From Desulfatibacillum sp. (GTDB lineage Bacteria; Desulfobacterota; Desulfobacteria; Desulfobacterales; Desulfatibacillaceae), in contig JAEINP010000005.1 in the NCBI GenBank assembly GCA_016342355.1, forward strand, positions 62,001 to 126,000: 64,000 nt of DNA, read 5' to 3'. The translations under genes and the position numbers were made by a program. Below the pieces are notes generated by a model. It was not told the origin of the DNA. It searched no databases and saw only the letters and a program-made list of their open reading frames with translations. Positions 36,857 to 44,838 of this stretch are shown here, piece after piece; positions within the stretch are counted from its first letter, which is position 1, and every line of letters starts with the position of its first letter.

Positions 36857-37429
36857 ATGAAACCCTGGTTAATAGTAGGCGGTTTATTTGCAGCTGGTTT
36901 GATCCTGGCTTATGCCGTGGGTAAAACCCTTGTGATTGCTTTGGTGGGAGGTATTTCGGGCGGGGCGGTAGGCGCTTTGATCGCCTATTTCCTCCTGCAA
37001 CGAGATAAACAATCGGCAGCGCCCGCGCCGGAACCCCAATCTCCCGTGGATCCCACCATCCCCCTGTTGGAAAGTCTGGTAGGGCTCAATGTGGCAATCC
37101 GGGAACAAGCCCTGCCTTTGCAGGCCTTGGAAACCACGGAACGGGTCATCGATAAGTTGAGGGAATTATTGCCTGAAATGAACGAAAACTACCGGGGTAA
37201 CGATCTCACCTGGGAGGTAAACCGGTCTGCCGAGGATTATCTGGTGCGTGTCGTCAAGCCATACATGGCTTTGAACTCCGGAGACAGGCAAGATCGCATG
37301 GAGGAATTCCTCCAGGGGTTAAGCAGCCTGGAAACCGCCCTGGACGAGGTGCTGGATGTGGTTCGAAACCACAAACAGGGAGAATTTTCCGTTAAGGCTA
37401 AATTTCTCAACGCCCGTTTTGCCAGGTAA
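36857..37429 (+). CDS. Small membrane protein of unknown function, first gene of the DUF350/DUF4178 module
   Basis: A 190-residue protein with two close N-terminal hydrophobic helices (about 4-22 and 25-47, Gly/Ala-rich), a Pro-rich linker (53-67) and a cytoplasmic helical domain that is mostly coiled-coil-like. I do not recognise the family. It begins a co-directional run of six genes reaching the aminopropyltransferase, with 58 bases before the next gene. Inferred role: an inner-membrane component of that module. The ribosome site is weak. Confidence 0.7.
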   Translation: MKPWLIVGGLFAAGLILAYAVGKTLVIALVGGISGGAVGALIAYFLLQRDKQSAAPAPEPQSPVDPTIPLLESLVGLNVAIREQALPLQALETTERVIDKLRELLPEMNENYRGNDLTWEVNRSAEDYLVRVVKPYMALNSGDRQDRMEEFLQGLSSLETALDEVLDVVRNHKQGEFSVKAKFLNARFAR

Positions 37430-37487
37430 CATAAATGGAAAGCAACTTTTCGGATTTCGGAATCAAGAACCAATACGAGGTTGAATA

Positions 37488-38114
37488 ATGGACAATGCCA
37501 CCAGAAGAAGGCTGGACTCCCAGTTTGCCGCTGCCAGGTCCCTGAACCCGGAAAAGGTTATCCCGGCCAACGACCGGTATAAATATACTGTGGAGGATGT
37601 GGGCCAGGGCGATTTCATCCGGCTTGAAAACAAGTCCTATGTGGTCCGGGAAATTGGACTCTACCACGAAACCGGCGAAGATTTTCGCAAAAAAACAGGC
37701 GATAAGTGGACCGAACTCAGGCTTTTTTGTATTGAAGACGGGCAGACAGTCCATATTGAGTGGGAAAAGGACGACGAGGTGGAAGCCCATGTGACGGAAA
37801 GAGCCTTGGACTTCTCCCAGATTAAGGATGATGGGGGTGATGACCTGGATGAGGATGACATGGACAATCTTGCCGAAGAGGAAGACACCATCTTTTTTGA
37901 TAACAAGGCCTTTGAATATGACGATGACTACGCGGCCCTGTATGAAAGGGAAGGGCAGTCGCCTGAAAAAGTCTATTTTTACGATTTCCTTTCCAGAGAC
38001 AAAAAATGCATTACGGTTGAAGAATGGGGCTCAGGCAGCGGGAAGGAAGAGTACCAGTTGTTCCTGAGCCGGAAAATCAACCCGGATTCCATAGAGGTGG
38101 TAGCCAAATCCTGA
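37488..38114 (+). CDS. DUF4178 domain protein
   Basis: A 208-residue acidic soluble protein. The first 130 residues match the DUF4178 pattern as I remember it (VGDFI/GQGDFIRLENKSYVVREIGLY split across the N-terminus, KWTELRLF, DGQTVHIEWEKDDE). The rest is Asp/Glu-rich (residues 114-135). DUF4178 proteins commonly lie beside DUF350 membrane proteins and spermidine-synthase-like enzymes, as they do here. Function unknown. Its TGA overlaps the ATG of the next gene by one base, so translation is probably coupled. Confidence 0.75.
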   Translation: MDNATRRRLDSQFAAARSLNPEKVIPANDRYKYTVEDVGQGDFIRLENKSYVVREIGLYHETGEDFRKKTGDKWTELRLFCIEDGQTVHIEWEKDDEVEAHVTERALDFSQIKDDGGDDLDEDDMDNLAEEEDTIFFDNKAFEYDDDYAALYEREGQSPEKVYFYDFLSRDKKCITVEEWGSGSGKEEYQLFLSRKINPDSIEVVAKS

Positions 38115-38698
38115 TGGATTCAAAGCAATCACCATATGTGGATATGTCCGCCGCCGAATTGCGCCTGACCCTCCTGGCAGGGCCTGTGGATGCCTCCCGG
38201 TTTCATGTGCTGGAGGCTCAAACAGTGAATATTGAAGGCTTGGAGGTGGAAGCTCGGATTATCGGCGCCAGCCACTGGGTTACCTTGAGAATGGCGGATT
38301 TGTGCATTCACGAGTTGTTTTCCTGTCACCAAATGAAAGACGAAACAGCCCTGTTGCAATACGGCCCTCTGGGGCAGGTTTCAGGCCCCGTGGACCTGCT
38401 GCTGTTCGGAAAACTGAACTATACTTTTAATTCCAGAGTGATGAGTCTGTGCGTTCCTGATGCAGAGGCCAGGGAAATCCGGGAATCCGCCCTTTTAGCT
38501 GGAGACAGGGAAGGGCACATGGGCCTTATCCAGGAATTCCCAAGCCAGGAAGGCCTGCCTGCCCCTCAGACTATTGTGTGGGCATGTCTGGAGCCCGGGG
38601 CATTTAAAATGGCCACCATTCATTCCTATCCCAATGAAGGCAGTCTGGTTATCACCCGGACAAGGGTCTTTACGGATATAGCCGGGAAGGTGTCATAA
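38114..38698 (+). CDS. DUF2617-like protein
   Basis: A 194-residue soluble protein. The stretch LTLLAGPVDASRFHVLEAQT, WVTLRMADLCIHELFSC and VSGPVDLLLFGKLNYTFNSRV resembles DUF2617, a small family found with DUF4178 and membrane-fused aminopropyltransferases. This assignment is from memory and moderate. ATG 38114 overlaps the DUF4178 stop (TGATG); the frame is open further upstream but inside that gene. The lipoprotein gene starts 2 bases after its stop. Function unknown. Confidence 0.7.
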   Translation: MDSKQSPYVDMSAAELRLTLLAGPVDASRFHVLEAQTVNIEGLEVEARIIGASHWVTLRMADLCIHELFSCHQMKDETALLQYGPLGQVSGPVDLLLFGKLNYTFNSRVMSLCVPDAEAREIRESALLAGDREGHMGLIQEFPSQEGLPAPQTIVWACLEPGAFKMATIHSYPNEGSLVITRTRVFTDIAGKVS

Positions 38699-38700
38699 TT

Positions 38701-40272
38701 ATGAAATTCAGGGTTTTATTTATAATACTTTTGGTATTGTCCCTTACCTTGACAGGCTGCGGGCTGCCCAAAGACCTCAAAAAGGAGGCGGAGACCCAGA
38801 ATCAGCAGATCATGGATCAGGCAATGAAGATCAGGGAACGAAAAGTTGCCTTTGAATCCTTTACGAAATCCAATGAATTCAGTAAATTTGCCTCTTATGC
38901 GGAACGGGAACACTGGGGGGAATACTTTAAAGAAGCCCAGACCTTGTTGAATAAGTCCAAGACAGCCTATGACCAGGAAGTGGCTCCCATTGTGAAAAAC
39001 AACAAAAAGGATCAGGTCGGAGAGCTTACCGTGGCATTAGCCAAGGTACGGGCCTTTTTGCGCACATCCAATGAGTTTACGGAAAAGGTGGACAAGCGCA
39101 TTGCCTTTTTAAAAGAGACCATGGCCAATGCAGGCGCCATGGTGCAAAAGGCCGAAGATGATTTCAGCGCTCTCAATACCCGCATTGAACAATCTTCCAT
39201 TATTCTGGAAAAAGCCAAGGCCGACTATCCCCAAAAGGCGGAGGATATAAATAACCGGTTTGCGCCCATAAAGAAACTGGCGGAAGAAACCGACACCGCC
39301 ATGGACAAAGCCCGCAATCAATTAAAAAAGCACACCACAGAGGCGGACGCGGATTATGCGGTGTTGGGGGACTCGTGCACAGCCATTGGCCGGAATCTGT
39401 CCACTGAACAAAGTGCGTGTGCGGCTCTGGAAAAACGGACTGGTCAGTTGTACCACAGCTATTCCAAAGTCCTGAACGACATGCGGGTGGACTATTTCGC
39501 CACAGTGGGCCGCACCTCCTGGGACAACAACGCAGAATACGATAGAGACAATGACTATATATACCCCAGTAGGCAGGTGGACGAGGACACTTACGAGCTG
39601 TTGGCCGCCCTACCGGAGAACACGCTCCTGGCCGGTTACCGGGGCAATGTGTATCCCGCCATCGATAAAATCGCCTGGGCTTCCCTGAAAATCAATCCCA
39701 CGGAGAATATGTCGTCTTGGGATGACGAGGCCCAGTTCTGGCTTTCAGACCTGGACGCTAAATTCTATCATAAATACATTATGTTGGAGGATGGCGTAAA
39801 GAAGGAAACCGACTGGGTTCCCGTGGACGAGGATTTATTCGACCAATATGAAGAAGCCTTGGGTATGACCATTCTTTCCAAGCCTTACGGCATGTACGAG
39901 GATGAAATTCTGTCCCAGGCAACTCCTCCGGGAATGGCCTATGTAGACAACCCCAAATACGGGGAATGGCAGCAGGATTCGTCCGGGCGCAGCTTCTGGC
40001 ATTGGTACGGACAGTACGCATTTTTCCGGACCATTATGGGGGGCGGCTATTATTATCGGGGCGATTATGATCGTTGGAACAGGAATTACCGGGGCAGGCA
40101 GCCCTATTACGGAACCGGAAGCAATACCTACGGAACCAATTCTCCATATGGTCGCAAACATTATTCCGGCTCCTACTATGGGAAGAGCGGCGGTTTTTCC
40201 ACCCAAAGCCCCACGGTAAGGGGCAGCGGAGCAGCGGCTCGGGGCGGTGGTCCCGGGGGCGCTGGAAAATAA
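38701..40272 (+). CDS. Lipoprotein with coiled coil and Gly/Tyr/Arg-rich tail
   Basis: A 523-residue lipoprotein: signal peptide with lipobox LTGC and lipidated Cys20. Residues 25-240 are helical and coiled-coil-like, rich in Lys, Glu and Ala. A globular part follows (about 250-430, with repeated Trp/Asp/Tyr clusters such as WDDEAQFWLSDLDAKFY). The last 90 residues are low-complexity Gly, Tyr, Arg and Ser (GGGYYYRGDYDRWNRNYRGR), likely disordered. I do not recognise the family. Position between DUF2617-like and DUF350 genes suggests an envelope-facing part of the same module. Confidence 0.75.
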   Translation: MKFRVLFIILLVLSLTLTGCGLPKDLKKEAETQNQQIMDQAMKIRERKVAFESFTKSNEFSKFASYAEREHWGEYFKEAQTLLNKSKTAYDQEVAPIVKNNKKDQVGELTVALAKVRAFLRTSNEFTEKVDKRIAFLKETMANAGAMVQKAEDDFSALNTRIEQSSIILEKAKADYPQKAEDINNRFAPIKKLAEETDTAMDKARNQLKKHTTEADADYAVLGDSCTAIGRNLSTEQSACAALEKRTGQLYHSYSKVLNDMRVDYFATVGRTSWDNNAEYDRDNDYIYPSRQVDEDTYELLAALPENTLLAGYRGNVYPAIDKIAWASLKINPTENMSSWDDEAQFWLSDLDAKFYHKYIMLEDGVKKETDWVPVDEDLFDQYEEALGMTILSKPYGMYEDEILSQATPPGMAYVDNPKYGEWQQDSSGRSFWHWYGQYAFFRTIMGGGYYYRGDYDRWNRNYRGRQPYYGTGSNTYGTNSPYGRKHYSGSYYGKSGGFSTQSPTVRGSGAAARGGGPGGAGK

Positions 40273-40326
40273 AAAAATCACGGGCGTTATTTTTTAAACG
40301 CAACGTTTACCGGGAGGCTTAGTGGC

Positions 40327-41169
40327 ATGACGCAGGAACTCATACTTACAGGACATGGATTTGTTTATGCCGGTATTGTGATGGCCTATGTGGTGATCGC
40401 CAAAAAATTGATGGACTGGCGCACCAAGGACATGGATGATGACTATGAAATCGAGGAAAACAGCAATGCCGCAGTAGGCCTGCAAAGGGCTGGTCTGTAC
40501 CTGGGAATTGCTCTGGGGATGACAGGCGCTTTAGCCGGAGGCTCTCATGGGTTTACCAGGGATGTCGTGGCCCTGGCCTGGGAAGGGGCTTTGATTGTCG
40601 TGCTCCTGTTTATTTCCAGGGAATTATGCGACCGGATTATTCTTAAAGGCATAGACAATGATGCCGAGGCCGCCAATGCCAATACCGCTGTGGGTTTTGC
40701 GGAAATGGGGGTATATATTTCCTCGGGCCTGATCCTGGCCGGGGCCTTTGCAGGGGAGGGGGGCGGGCTTCTTAGCGCCCTGGTGTTTTTTGTTTTAGGG
40801 CAATTGTCCCTTATAATCCTTTATTATATATACGAAACAGCCACACCCTTTAATATCCGGGATGAAATCCAGGCAGGAAACGCAGCCGCAGGGCTCAACG
40901 CGGCCGGTATGATGGTGGCTTTGGGGATTATTCTCAAATCCAGCATATCAGGCCCGGCCATGGGATGGGCGCGGGATCTTTCGGCGTTTGGCGTCAACGC
41001 AGCAGCCGGGCTGCTTATGCTGTTCATATTCCGGTTTATTATTGATTGGTTGTTGCTTCCCAGTACAGATTATGAAACCGAAATCAAACGGGACCGAAAT
41101 CTGGCGGCTATGGCTCTTACCGAAGGAGTTTTATTGGCTATGGCTGTCATTATTGCAGCGGTTCTGTAG
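40327..41169 (+). CDS. DUF350 (YjfL-type) integral membrane protein
   Basis: A 280-residue polytopic protein with about eight hydrophobic helices arranged as repeated DUF350 units. Each repeat has an N-A-A-x-G or N-T-A-V-G motif before a helix (NSNAAVGLQRAGLYLG, NANTAVGFAEMGVYIS, GNAAAGLNAAGMMVA) and acidic/basic residues in the loops. DUF350 proteins (E. coli YjfL) are found in envelope-stress clusters next to polyamine-related enzymes; no activity is firmly established as far as I know. GGGAGG lies 8-10 bases before the ATG. The aminopropyltransferase gene follows. Confidence 0.85.
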   Translation: MTQELILTGHGFVYAGIVMAYVVIAKKLMDWRTKDMDDDYEIEENSNAAVGLQRAGLYLGIALGMTGALAGGSHGFTRDVVALAWEGALIVVLLFISRELCDRIILKGIDNDAEAANANTAVGFAEMGVYISSGLILAGAFAGEGGGLLSALVFFVLGQLSLIILYYIYETATPFNIRDEIQAGNAAAGLNAAGMMVALGIILKSSISGPAMGWARDLSAFGVNAAAGLLMLFIFRFIIDWLLLPSTDYETEIKRDRNLAAMALTEGVLLAMAVIIAAVL

Positions 41170-41208
41170 ATAACCATGACCGCATCATTTGCACAGGGAG
41201 GCAACCAC

Positions 41209-42888
41209 ATGGGGAAAATCCGCCCCCGTTTCGCCTCCTTTCTGCTGGGGTTCAGCATGTTCGCCACCGGGGCGAGCGGGCTGGTTTTCGAGTACATCCT
41301 CAGTACTGTTTCCACCTATATCCTGGGTAATTCCATTGAGCAGTTCAGCATCACCATCGCCCTGATGCTGCTCATGATGGGCATCGCCGGGTATGCCCAG
41401 AAGTTCATGTCCGACCGGCATCTCATCGAAAAATTTATTGTACTGGAAATCACCCTGGCCCTGTTGGGGGGGTATGCTCCCATAGCCATTTACGCATCTT
41501 TTGGCTTTGTGCCCGACCATTTCATGGTCATCAATTATTTTTTCGTCATGTCCATCGGGTTTCTCATCGGGTTTGAAATCCCCCTGGTTTTGCGGATCAA
41601 TGAAATATATTCCGATACCCTGGGCGCCAATATCGCCGGTGTGGTGGGACCGGATTATGTTGGCGCCTTTATGGGCGCTTTGGTCTGGACCTTTTTTCTG
41701 CTCAAGGTGTTCCCATTGACGGAAATCAGTTTTCTGGTGGGTGGAACCAATTTTATAATCGCAGCCATAACATTCATGTATTTCATGAAATATGGACTTG
41801 TAAAGCATAGATTTATTTGTATTTTTGCCATTATAATTTCCGCTATGATCCTGGTTTTCGGGTACGCCAATAACCGGGGCTGGAATCTGAACCTGGAACA
41901 AAAACTCTACGACTCCAAAATCGTGTTTTCGCAAACCACCAAATACCAACGCCTAGTCCTGACCCATGACGCGCCCCTGGACGAATACCGTTTTTATATT
42001 AACGGCAACCTCCAGTTTTCCAGCCGGGATCAGGCGATTTATCACGAACAACTGGTGCATCCGGTATTCGCGTTGGCCAGGGGTGTTAAAAATATACTGA
42101 TTTTGGGGGGAGGGGATGGTCTGGTCCTGCGCGAGGTCCTGAAATATCCCGAAGTAAACAGTGTGATGTTGGTGGACCTGGACCCGGACATGGTGAGTGT
42201 CTGTTCCACTAACCCTGTTCTCACCCAACTCAATAATCATGCCTTTGATAACGCCAGGGTACTCGCCCAAGGCTCCCGGGCTGTTTCCGGCGAGGGTCTG
42301 GCCAGGGTTTTTCAAGAGACGGACAGGATCATGCCCAAAGGGGAACATGAGACCCAGAAAATTGCCACCGTGGAAATCATGAACGTGGATGCGGACCGCT
42401 TCCTGGATCAGGTACAGGGCCGATGGGATGTGGTCCTGATTGATTTTCCCGATCCGTCCTCTGTGGAGCTTGCCAAACTCTATTCCCGGGAGTTCTACCG
42501 CAAACTATCCAGGGTTTTGGCCCCAGGAGCGATGATCACGGTCCAGGCCACGTCGCCTTATCATGCAAAGGAATCCTTCCTCTGTATTCTTCGGACTATG
42601 GAATCTGCGGGATATTCGACCTTGCCATACCACGACAATGTTCCCTCCTTTGGAGATTGGGGGTGGATCATGGCCTGGAAGCCTAGTATATCTTCCGATT
42701 CTGTAAATGGAAAGATAGGGCGCATCAAAGAATTCAGTGTGGCCACTTCCTATCTGACCCCCGAGGTTTTCCGGGCTTCCTTGTCGTTCGGCAAAGGCAT
42801 GCTGGATACCCGGGAAACCAGAGTCAACACCCTCATGCAGCCCGCCCTGCTGACCTATTACCAGGATGATAGCTGGAAATCAGAGTAA
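41209..42888 (+). CDS. Membrane-fused spermidine synthase-like aminopropyltransferase
   Basis: A 559-residue fusion. The first 210 residues contain about seven transmembrane helices (SFLLGFSMFATGASGLVFEY, IALMLLMMGIAGYA). The rest is a spermidine synthase-fold domain with the nucleotide-binding motif LILGGGDGLVLREVLKYP, the acidic residues of VDLDPDMV and DVVLIDFPDPSS in the position of the DxxDP aminopropyl acceptor loop. It would transfer an aminopropyl-type group from decarboxylated SAM, or another SAM-derived group, at the membrane; substrate unknown. ATG 41209 is chosen over 41176 because GGGAGG (41196-41201) is seven bases upstream. Last gene of the module; converges with a minus-strand methyltransferase. 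Confidence 0.88.
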   Translation: MGKIRPRFASFLLGFSMFATGASGLVFEYILSTVSTYILGNSIEQFSITIALMLLMMGIAGYAQKFMSDRHLIEKFIVLEITLALLGGYAPIAIYASFGFVPDHFMVINYFFVMSIGFLIGFEIPLVLRINEIYSDTLGANIAGVVGPDYVGAFMGALVWTFFLLKVFPLTEISFLVGGTNFIIAAITFMYFMKYGLVKHRFICIFAIIISAMILVFGYANNRGWNLNLEQKLYDSKIVFSQTTKYQRLVLTHDAPLDEYRFYINGNLQFSSRDQAIYHEQLVHPVFALARGVKNILILGGGDGLVLREVLKYPEVNSVMLVDLDPDMVSVCSTNPVLTQLNNHAFDNARVLAQGSRAVSGEGLARVFQETDRIMPKGEHETQKIATVEIMNVDADRFLDQVQGRWDVVLIDFPDPSSVELAKLYSREFYRKLSRVLAPGAMITVQATSPYHAKESFLCILRTMESAGYSTLPYHDNVPSFGDWGWIMAWKPSISSDSVNGKIGRIKEFSVATSYLTPEVFRASLSFGKGMLDTRETRVNTLMQPALLTYYQDDSWKSE

Positions 42889-42899
42889 TACGGCCACCC

Positions 42900-43454
42900 T
42901 TATTTTTCGACTTGATACAAGTAAATGGGATCATGGTTCATGGCGCCCTTGGGCTTGATAACGGAGTAGGGGGTCCAGCCGGGCAGGGGAAAGTTGGCGG
43001 AGGCCACCCTGGCCCCTGGCTTGAGTTCCAGGGCCAGTTTTTGGGACAAGTCGCGCATTACATCGGGAAAAAGATAGCAAAAAACATAATCGGCGTCGGT
43101 GAGGTTGGCTCGGAAGAAATCGGAAGCCTTGATTTTCGCCCGGGGCATAAACAGGTTTCGAATCTTTGCGGTAAGCAGGGCCAGTGGATTCAGATCGTAT
43201 CCCACAGCCCGAACACGATACCGTTTTACCGCCCCTGCCACCACCCTGCCGTCCCCGCATCCCAGGTCTAAGAACAAGGAATCCTTTTCCATGGGCATGG
43301 CGTCCAGAAAGGCCCTGACCCTGGCCTGGGGCGTAGTCACAAACAAGGCGCCCCGGGTTTTGGAAAGAACCAGGGCGGTGCACAGCACATAAATGATTTT
43401 CAGGGCGAAAAGCCCCCCCAGCAAAGCCAGGGGGGCCAAAATCCAAAGGGGCAT
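42900..43454 (-). CDS. FAM173-like SAM-dependent methyltransferase with N-terminal membrane anchor
   Basis: A 184-residue protein with one N-terminal hydrophobic helix (about 4-30), then a Rossmann methyltransferase domain: LFLDLGCGDGRVV (SAM site), VGYDLNPLAL (acidic residue after strand 2), FRANLTDADYVFCYLFPDVM. This pattern resembles the FAM173/ATPSC-KMT protein lysine methyltransferases, which are membrane-anchored. The bacterial substrate is unknown. It is 38 bases downstream of the CrtC/AttH-like gene on the same strand and probably co-transcribed. It converges with the aminopropyltransferase, 11 bases apart. Confidence 0.8.
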   Translation of the reverse strand: MPLWILAPLALLGGLFALKIIYVLCTALVLSKTRGALFVTTPQARVRAFLDAMPMEKDSLFLDLGCGDGRVVAGAVKRYRVRAVGYDLNPLALLTAKIRNLFMPRAKIKASDFFRANLTDADYVFCYLFPDVMRDLSQKLALELKPGARVASANFPLPGWTPYSVIKPKGAMNHDPIYLYQVEK

Positions 43455-43492
43455 GCGTGGCTCCTATTATAGCGGAATGGCCAAAGGCCAAG

Positions 43493-44491
43493 CTATACCA
43501 TAATTTGCACCCCATGGTCCCTTTTATCCGTCAGGATTTCAAAGGCGGCCCGATTTTGAGTGAACAGCCGTTCCTGGACGCCGTCCTTTGTGTTCAGGTT
43601 CACCTCGCACCAGGCGATTTTTGTATTGAGGCAGTGTTTCACCCCTCCGGGAGGATTATAGTAGGTCAGGCCCACAAAATCTTCGATGGATGCCTTAATG
43701 CTGCCCTGGATGGAGAAGTCCCGATTCTTTGAAGAAAAATCCCAGGTAAAATAGTCAAACCGCCCTTTGGCCTTCAGGCTTTGGGGTATGGTATTGAGGG
43801 CGTATTCCTGGCCTTTGTGGCGAAGCACGATGACGGTCATGTAGGGGGTCCATACAGGGCCGAACTTCAGACGAGCGGTTGCCAACTCCAAAAAGGTGTC
43901 GGCGCTGTTGTCGAACCCCGCCACCTGGCCCCAGGCATAAAGGTCGGTATGTTTTGTGCCCCAATTGTGATTCTGGCTCCCTATCCACTTGTCTATCACC
44001 CATTCCAGCCCGTTCACCACAATGCTCCCGGAAAAAGAGGCAAAGGGCAGGGGTACGCAGGCCTTGGCCTTTGGAAGGCCTGTCTCGTAGAGTTTTTCAT
44101 TTAAAAGCAGCAGGGGAGGGGTGTGGCCGGAATACTTCAGGTCCCATGCTATTTCATTGTCTCCGGTTTTTGCGGCGCCTTTTAAGGATTTGGAATCCAG
44201 TGTGCAGTCCCCGATGGAGGCCTTCAGGCCTTTGGCTGCAAACTGTGTCTGGGAAATAGGCGTCTCATTTTTTACAGCCACGTGTTTTCCGGTTTCCTTG
44301 TCAAACATCATGGCCCAAACTTCTCCGATGGCCCGTTCCGGTTCTCCGTGGGGTGAAAAAACAGTGTACCTGATCCAAAAAGCCTGGGGCTTTTGGGGAT
44401 GGTTGGCGCGTAAAAAATAGCTTTCGTAATGTCCCTGGTTTTGTCCCAAAATAAATCGGGTCCGATTGGTTTCCTCCCTGCTTTGTTTCAT
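43493..44491 (-). CDS. CrtC/AttH-like lipocalin-type protein
   Basis: A 332-residue soluble, beta-rich protein. The motif IGSQNHNWGTKHTDLYAWGQV (split around residue 174) is typical of the carotenoid 1,2-hydratase/AttH superfamily, whose members have a lipocalin-like double-domain fold. The family binds or hydrates hydrophobic lipids, but no carotenoid genes are nearby, so the name of the substrate should not be transferred. The start at 44491 is chosen over 44518 because a GGGGGG ribosome site lies eight bases before it on the minus strand. Possibly acts with the membrane methyltransferase downstream. Confidence 0.75.
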   Translation of the reverse strand: MKQSREETNRTRFILGQNQGHYESYFLRANHPQKPQAFWIRYTVFSPHGEPERAIGEVWAMMFDKETGKHVAVKNETPISQTQFAAKGLKASIGDCTLDSKSLKGAAKTGDNEIAWDLKYSGHTPPLLLLNEKLYETGLPKAKACVPLPFASFSGSIVVNGLEWVIDKWIGSQNHNWGTKHTDLYAWGQVAGFDNSADTFLELATARLKFGPVWTPYMTVIVLRHKGQEYALNTIPQSLKAKGRFDYFTWDFSSKNRDFSIQGSIKASIEDFVGLTYYNPPGGVKHCLNTKIAWCEVNLNTKDGVQERLFTQNRAAFEILTDKRDHGVQIMV

Positions 44492-44838
44492 TGCAATATC
44501 CCCCCTTGGTTTTTTCAAAAGAGCTTATCCGTGGCGTGTTTGCTTCAATATATTTCCACGGATGTTAAAATTAAGCGCCTATAAATTAAGAGGCTATGTT
44601 TGTAAACGTATCAGACTTATTTTCCCGGGAGCCCTGGAGGTTTGCCTTGGGTTCCTGATCTTGGAAATTCTATATATCATAGCCCATGGCCCCGTAAAGG
44701 CAATCTTTTTCTGTTTGAAGGATCTGTGCGGGATGGTTCATTTTGGTTACTTTTTTACTGCAATATGCAAAAATAAGTCTGTTTTACCGGCGGCTGTCAA
44801 AAAACGCCGAATGCGCACCAGTCATGTCCATAATCAAC
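44492..44838. other. Intergenic spacer
   Basis: Part of a 430-base gap between two minus-strand genes. It contains the presumed promoter of the CrtC/AttH-like gene. A 135-codon plus-strand ORF covers the gap, but its composition is not protein-like and it runs across the terminator, so it is not called. Confidence 0.4.

Follow-up and report, generated by a model that had tools for sequence, protein, structure and literature searches.

What is the acceptor of a spermidine-synthase-like enzyme that is fused to a membrane domain and encoded next to a lipoprotein? This question is raised by a locus of Desulfatibacillum sp. (GenBank assembly GCA_016342355.1) within a stretch of 64,000 nucleotides of contig JAEINP010000005.1 (positions 62,001 to 126,000; hereafter the window), in whose list of open reading frames (ORFs) six co-directional members, here termed genes A to F, occupy positions 36857-42888 of the + strand. 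In the literature surveyed, the substrate of membrane-fused aminopropyltransferases appears open. The initial annotation of the window had regarded the six genes as a module that could attach a polyamine-type group to a lipid, an envelope polymer or a small molecule. Its observation is confirmed: the six genes are real and correctly placed, and the block is not a product of chance because homologous blocks occur in other genomes. Its interpretation is supported in part, a protein tail being favoured here as the target instead of the three proposed. In the best model, to which we assign a probability of about 0.35, the membrane-fused aminopropyltransferase (gene F) would aminopropylate the terminal lysine in the tail of the lipoprotein (gene D), a mimic of putrescine.

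The tail of D is the first line of evidence. Gene D (38701-40272, + strand) encodes a lipoprotein of 523 residues that belongs to no Pfam family; its signal ends in LTGC, a lipobox by eye, and is followed by a long helical part, a beta-rich part and the tail. The latter (residues 501-523, 40201-40269) is Gly/Arg-rich, predicted to be disordered, and ends in Gly-Lys; in an AlphaFold model of D with a mean predicted local distance difference test score (pLDDT) of 89.1, it constitutes the only stretch below 50. All 25 of 25 D homologues end in Gly-Lys, as do 23/23 in alignment A3 and 29 of 30 genome matches (the three sets overlap), and the sole match without this end among the 30 is a fusion with DUF350. 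In genome G024 (L246:4930-6507), an in-frame fusion joins D to DUF350, with loss of the Gly-Lys tail. Most loci devoid of D encode other proteins, unrelated to D by profile, which end in Gly-Lys or Lys; a hydrophobic stretch of at least 1.6 is present in 22 of the 23 such proteins with Gly-Lys tails, and the last one reaches 1.59. A Foldseek search with the D model gave no match at E <= 0.001. The matches shown by VIA-align 2 were mainly helical bundles over residues 23-252, with the beta-rich part barely covered; the best one had a Z of 11.9 and a root-mean-square deviation of 28.3 over 216 residues, a level common for such folds.

The prediction of a Lys tail was written down beforehand, and 23 further loci from other orders were then examined. 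On inspection, 21 of them contained a D homologue or a tail protein ending in Lys (18 Gly-Lys, 3 His-Lys); the misses were L195, where F is present and no DUF350 or D was found nearby, and L186, which lies at a contig end. A census of 72 F loci yielded 33 with D ending in Gly-Lys, 23 with another Gly-Lys tail and 16 remaining, five of which are truncated at contig ends (L047, L054, L069, L076, and L186). Seven more (L158, L159, L160, L162, L197, L198, and L199) have a Lys-ending ORF by DUF350 that falls outside the Gly-rich rule; these were counted by eye, and one ends in Gly-Lys. A Lys tail is thus found at 63 of the 67 F loci uncut by contig ends, 57 of these being Gly-Lys. With control genes at least 8.5 kb from F taken as anchors, 2/35 scored under the Lys criterion and 0/35 under the Gly-Lys one, as compared with 47/62 and 38/62 with F genes as anchors. 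A further 407 genes of the first loci include 58 that end in Lys and 12 in Gly-Lys, six of the 12 being the tail proteins themselves. Such a lysine might instead escape covalent change altogether and act as a charged anchor or as an end to be recognised, be it in polyamine sensing, by a protease or in binding a partner. The Gly/Arg-rich, predicted disordered tails and the rhomboid genes adjoining F at three loci are compatible with this role; we consider it unlikely, however, as the tail travels with an amine-acting enzyme and D is found only where F is.

The second line of evidence comes from the enzyme itself. Gene F (41176-42888, + strand; 570 residues) matches Spermine_synth at 3.2e-31 and the NCBIfam model NF002956, polyamine aminopropyltransferase, with 625.7 bits against a curated cut-off of 472. 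Its membrane part (residues 19-233, 41230-41874) is followed by a spermidine-synthase-like domain (residues 240-570, 41893-42885), which includes an additional stretch (residues 362-397, 42259-42366) present in the subfamily nearest to the window. Homologues of F were surveyed at E <= 1e-40 in 146 genomes of the order, and 37 of them were aligned with one from an Alteromonas plasmid. Invariant in all 38 proteins are Q280, D285, Y289, H290, E291, GGGDG 311-315, D336, D405, and A406, together with D423, P425-P427, Y436, Q457, and S460. Solved aminopropyltransferases align to residues 274-362 and 404-560 (best match 1.4e-26), and the motifs are common to both. Presumably, from what is generally known of spermidine synthases, the invariant residues serve donor binding and catalysis; the predicted donor and catalytic residues of F are hence intact in 38/38 homologues. 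The initial annotation had named loss of the substrate-binding residues and scattering of the genes in relatives as outcomes that would refute it; the residues are retained, and the D-E-F core described below is not scattered.

The hydropathy of F before residue 233 displays three long hydrophobic blocks and one single block; the long ones are read as helix pairs, giving seven helices in total, the number also given for this protein type in a passage of PMC11237479 (Ravi 2024). Within this part, E91, E134, R140, and D160 are invariant in 38/38. The mean number of Lys and Arg residues is 2.16 at the N-terminus, 0.08 in loop 1-2, 2.42 in loop 2-3, 0.08 in loop 3-4, 2.74 in loop 4-5, 0.24 in loop 5-6, and 3.05 in loop 6-7, and the N-terminal side is the richer one in all 38 sequences. 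By the positive-inside rule, this alternation would place the catalytic domain, which follows helix 7, outside the membrane in 38/38 homologues. F is therefore very improbable as an ordinary cytoplasmic spermidine synthase that is membrane-bound by happenstance: its NCBIfam name would fit such a role, but the charge pattern sets the domain outside in every homologue, and fusions of this kind reportedly failed to complement an Escherichia coli spermidine synthase mutant. Another alternative, a contender if a doubtful one, is that F adds the aminopropyl group to a small amine or to the head group of a lipid at the outer face of the membrane, with the Lys-tailed protein acting as carrier, sensor or activator. 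It would agree with F being a membrane protein with invariant charged membrane residues and a predicted action at the outer face, and aminopropylation of other substrates is suggested in the part of PMC11237479 that deals with these operons; the last-residue Lys in both D and the tail proteins unrelated to it is left unexplained.

The preferred model, aminopropylation of the tail lysine, builds on findings established by computation: the genes present and their linkage, the conservation of residues and of the tail, and the charge pattern. The locus would be one form of a modular system for membrane stress that has D, DUF350 (gene E), and F as its basis. Seven helices would anchor F, with its spermidine-synthase-like domain, to judge from the charges, on the outer face of the inner membrane; the disordered D tail ending in Gly-Lys would lie on the same side. 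The side chain of lysine, an aminobutyl amine, may mimic putrescine, and F may move an aminopropyl group to it from decarboxylated S-adenosylmethionine (AdoMet), forming a protein-bound spermidine-like end. DUF350 and/or the F helices, with their invariant charged residues, might carry the donor across the membrane, while inner-face partners (A with TelA, PspA or SPFH elsewhere; A, DUF4178, and DUF2617 here) might couple the reaction to membrane maintenance, as their neighbourhood suggests. It is a tentative possibility that, in this manner, lipoproteins or small anchored proteins have their C-terminal lysine converted outside the cytoplasm to a spermidine-like residue, with DUF350 and/or the seven helices exporting decarboxylated AdoMet, and that E. 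coli-type relatives ligate spermidine to a Gly-Gly tail for a similar end. If the terminal lysine is the acceptor, this would constitute a polyamine-type protein modification outside the cytoplasm; it would also tie polyamine chemistry to membrane-stress systems and provide a candidate role for DUF350.

Several observations weigh against this model. Under a scripted criterion, only 20 of the 23 new loci fit, two of them (L191 and L193) via unrelated ORFs; moreover, ten of the 18 Gly-Lys fits belong to one tail-protein family from related genomes and are therefore not independent. At four usable F loci (L083, L161, L163, and L195), the rules applied here detect no Lys tail. No DUF350 was seen at L083, L163 or L195 either, and the F of L163 is truncated; at L161, on a Burkholderia plasmid, DUF350 lies on the strand opposite to F, and an ORF on the DUF350 strand (L161:2768-3586) has a Gly/Ser-rich tail ending in His-Lys, which was found afterwards and is excluded from the counts. 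Export of the donor by DUF350 and/or the F helices is a conjectured step. Finally, the two Desulfatibacillum genomes, each rated as 100% complete, encode no recognised AdoMet decarboxylase and are among 14 of the 43 F-bearing genomes without one.

Donor supply was considered across the order. A decarboxylase elsewhere in the genome, for which the initial annotation had proposed to look, is represented only by one PF02675 protein, and PF01536 has no match in this genome. The centre of the PF02675 protein, QLIETSLISAHF..Y..C, resembles the C-terminal halves of SpeD-SpeDC fusions and is unlike the ESH..HTWPE of others. In a passage of PMC10407285, pyruvoyl ornithine decarboxylases are said to be recognisable by Gln, Thr, Phe, and Tyr; the protein looks like one of these enzymes and is putatively assigned to them. 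An AdoMet decarboxylase of the Ser-His type or class 2 is found in 29 of the 43 genomes with F versus 26 of the 103 that lack it (Fisher 3.9e-6, with no correction for relatedness), or in 25/43 versus 22/103 when divergent Ser-His variants are excluded. The types were sorted by hand, and the class 2 match of G024 is fragmentary. The ornithine-decarboxylase type alone has no link with F (3/43 vs 9/103), and speD lies inside the module at some loci. It is distinctly unlikely that the donor of F in Desulfatibacillum is AdoMet itself or some other compound, for an aminocarboxypropyl or methyl transfer that needs no AdoMet decarboxylase. The absence of a recognised decarboxylase in both Desulfatibacillum genomes, and in 14/43 F-bearing genomes in all, would be accounted for, but the donor-pocket residues are the same as in genomes with speD, and F is commoner where the decarboxylase exists. 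The PF02675 gene of the genome containing the window (L012:9613-13830, contig C35) is followed by genes for GNAT (PF13480), ATP-grasp, and pyridoxal-phosphate-dependent decarboxylase proteins; ORFs of similar length occur in the same order at L150 of the second Desulfatibacillum genome (G067). This neighbourhood is perhaps a small peptide or polyamine pathway.

Conservation of the module was assessed in 41 loci, comprising the window and 40 F loci from the genomes of the order, 43 of 146 of which encode an F homologue. D is present in 25 of these loci, or 26 counting a contig-end fragment in L058, and in 26/26 loci holding D the genes for D, DUF350, and F are consecutive on one strand (L060 has a split DUF350). 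The order A-B-C-D-E-F occurs only in the window and in G067, so the six-gene block as a single conserved unit is rejected; the recurrence proposed by the initial annotation holds for the D-E-F core and for A and B, which recur with TelA, and fails for C, seen in one of 245 genera of the phylum sample. The stable core is D-E-F, and the remaining genes are exchangeable. The envelope or stress-related contexts that had been expected are indeed found, in the form of TelA, PspA, and SPFH neighbours: gene A, TelA, and DUF4178 lie upstream of D-E-F in G129 and G092, while A, TelA, DUF4178, and speD lie downstream of F in G017 (TelA and speD identities were each verified in Pfam on one member). Two loci have PspA, and a few others have SPFH/Band 7 together with zinc-ribbon DUF4178 proteins. 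On an Alteromonas megaplasmid, F, speD, A, TelA, DUF4178, D, and DUF350 are consecutive. Across the 146 genomes, D is encoded in 35, 34 of which are among the 43 with F; in the remaining one, G035, F is divided between two reading frames, with D and DUF350 next to it.

Some loci have additional features. Whole module versions including speD are located on large plasmids at L153 (Alteromonas) and L160 (Novosphingobium). A gene clustering with rhomboid proteases adjoins F at L053, L054, and L055 (Pfam verified in L055 only). Contig C340 of G006 (L245) carries in succession a gene matching class 2 AdoMet decarboxylase, one for a free-standing spermidine synthase, and those for D and DUF350. The genome containing the window (5.26 Mb, 142 contigs) has six more open frames, of 264 to 1049 residues, that match Spermine_synth besides F (L002, L005-L009). 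It also has one TelA copy elsewhere, and no module genes were seen by eye among the surrounding ORFs, where no profile was run.

Of the other genes of the locus, gene A (36857-37429, + strand; 190 residues) encodes an N-terminal hydrophobic segment followed by a helical-looking part; its homologues adjoin TelA in other genomes. It matches no family above its cut-off, the best being a weak PspM match of 19.2 bits against a cut-off of 80. Gene B (37488-38114, +) encodes a DUF4178 protein of 208 residues (7.7e-18). Gene E (40327-41169, +) encodes two DUF350 domains in 280 residues (3.9e-47) and is the sole DUF350 gene found in its genome. Gene C (38114-38698, +) encodes a DUF2617 protein of 194 residues (2.2e-30); the listed ORF starts at 38024, and the likely start is the ATG at 38114, which has one base in common with the stop codon of gene B. 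DUF2617 is found in 2/146 genomes of the order and 2/395 of the phylum sample, in both cases the same two Desulfatibacillum genomes, and a search of plasmids gave no match. Two motifs of gene C, ASHW..ELFSC and IHSYPNE, resemble AdoMet decarboxylase; a hidden enzyme of this type was rejected, the probability in a local profile comparison being 1.9%. An AlphaFold model from two sequences had a mean pLDDT of 40.3, too poor for a structure search. Among 14 control genomes, those of C. glutamicum and H. volcanii matched DUF2617 and Spermine_synth and not PF02675, which is a hint only.

Operons of this kind are already in print, as is the idea of aminopropylating substrates other than putrescine. 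The passages of PMC11237479 (Ravi 2024) describe a PspA-associated operon of a second group with a CesT/Tir-PspA pair (Shewanella example AAN56744-AAN56747), mention DUF2617 in related operons, and suggest a role in monitoring polyamines or aminopropylation of other substrates. The locus described here likewise combines a seven-transmembrane-fused spermidine-synthase-like protein, DUF350 (eight transmembrane segments per Ravi 2024), a lipoprotein, and DUF4178, but has gene A and DUF2617 in place of the CesT/Tir-PspA pair; the lipoprotein there has a Ctha_1186 domain, and the lipobox of D was recognised by eye. Neither the Lys tail nor the outward topology occurs in those passages of PMC11237479. 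New, by computation only, are the predicted outward topology of F, the Gly-Lys tail of D with the other Lys tails, the intact residues, and the link with AdoMet decarboxylase; the Lys tail and the topology are the parts that merit testing. No PspA match above the cut-off was found among the six genes, the search for PspA being confined to these.

Membrane-fused spermidine-synthase-like proteins with a DUF350 neighbour were reportedly described by Li in 2019 (Biochem J), where a substrate other than putrescine is said to have been proposed and neither acceptor nor membrane side assigned. The fusion kind and neighbour would be the same here; those genomes, however, reportedly had AdoMet decarboxylase, which is not recognised in Desulfatibacillum. 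E. coli YjfC (yjfIJKLMC) and YgiC (ygiBC) are annotated as peptide-spermidine ligases, an annotation said to come from Pederick in 2023. As at the present locus, yjf includes DUF350, and yjf and ygi each encode a DUF1190 protein with a Gly/Ser-rich tail beside a polyamine enzyme. That enzyme, however, is an ATP-grasp-type ligase, and YjfM and YgiB end in Gly-Gly, whereas D ends in Gly-Lys; Pfam profile searches gave no ATP-grasp match among the six genes and no DUF1190 match in D. The pairing of Gly-Gly with a ligase and of Gly-Lys with an aminopropyltransferase suggests that both enzyme types may act on protein tails, by analogy with two E. coli proteins on one side. In hypusine on eIF5A, an aminobutyl group from spermidine is transferred to an internal protein lysine in the cytoplasm by an unrelated enzyme; a polyamine-derived group on a lysine side chain would be common to both, but the group proposed here is aminopropyl, on a terminal lysine outside the cytoplasm. 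Aminopropylation of a terminal lysine, or an equivalent, is unstated in the titles, abstract openings and passages of the papers returned by full-text searches, a scope that leaves out most subscription journals and all preprints. A plasmid counterpart of the locus, pAMCP48-600 of Alteromonas mediterranea (L153), has A, DUF4178, D ending in Gly-Lys, DUF350, and F; unlike the present locus, it has speD and TelA, lacks DUF2617, and has F first. The genes downstream of F in the window (42900-44518) are convergent; one encodes a small methyltransferase, and the product of another matches Tocopherol_cycl weakly, below the cut-off.

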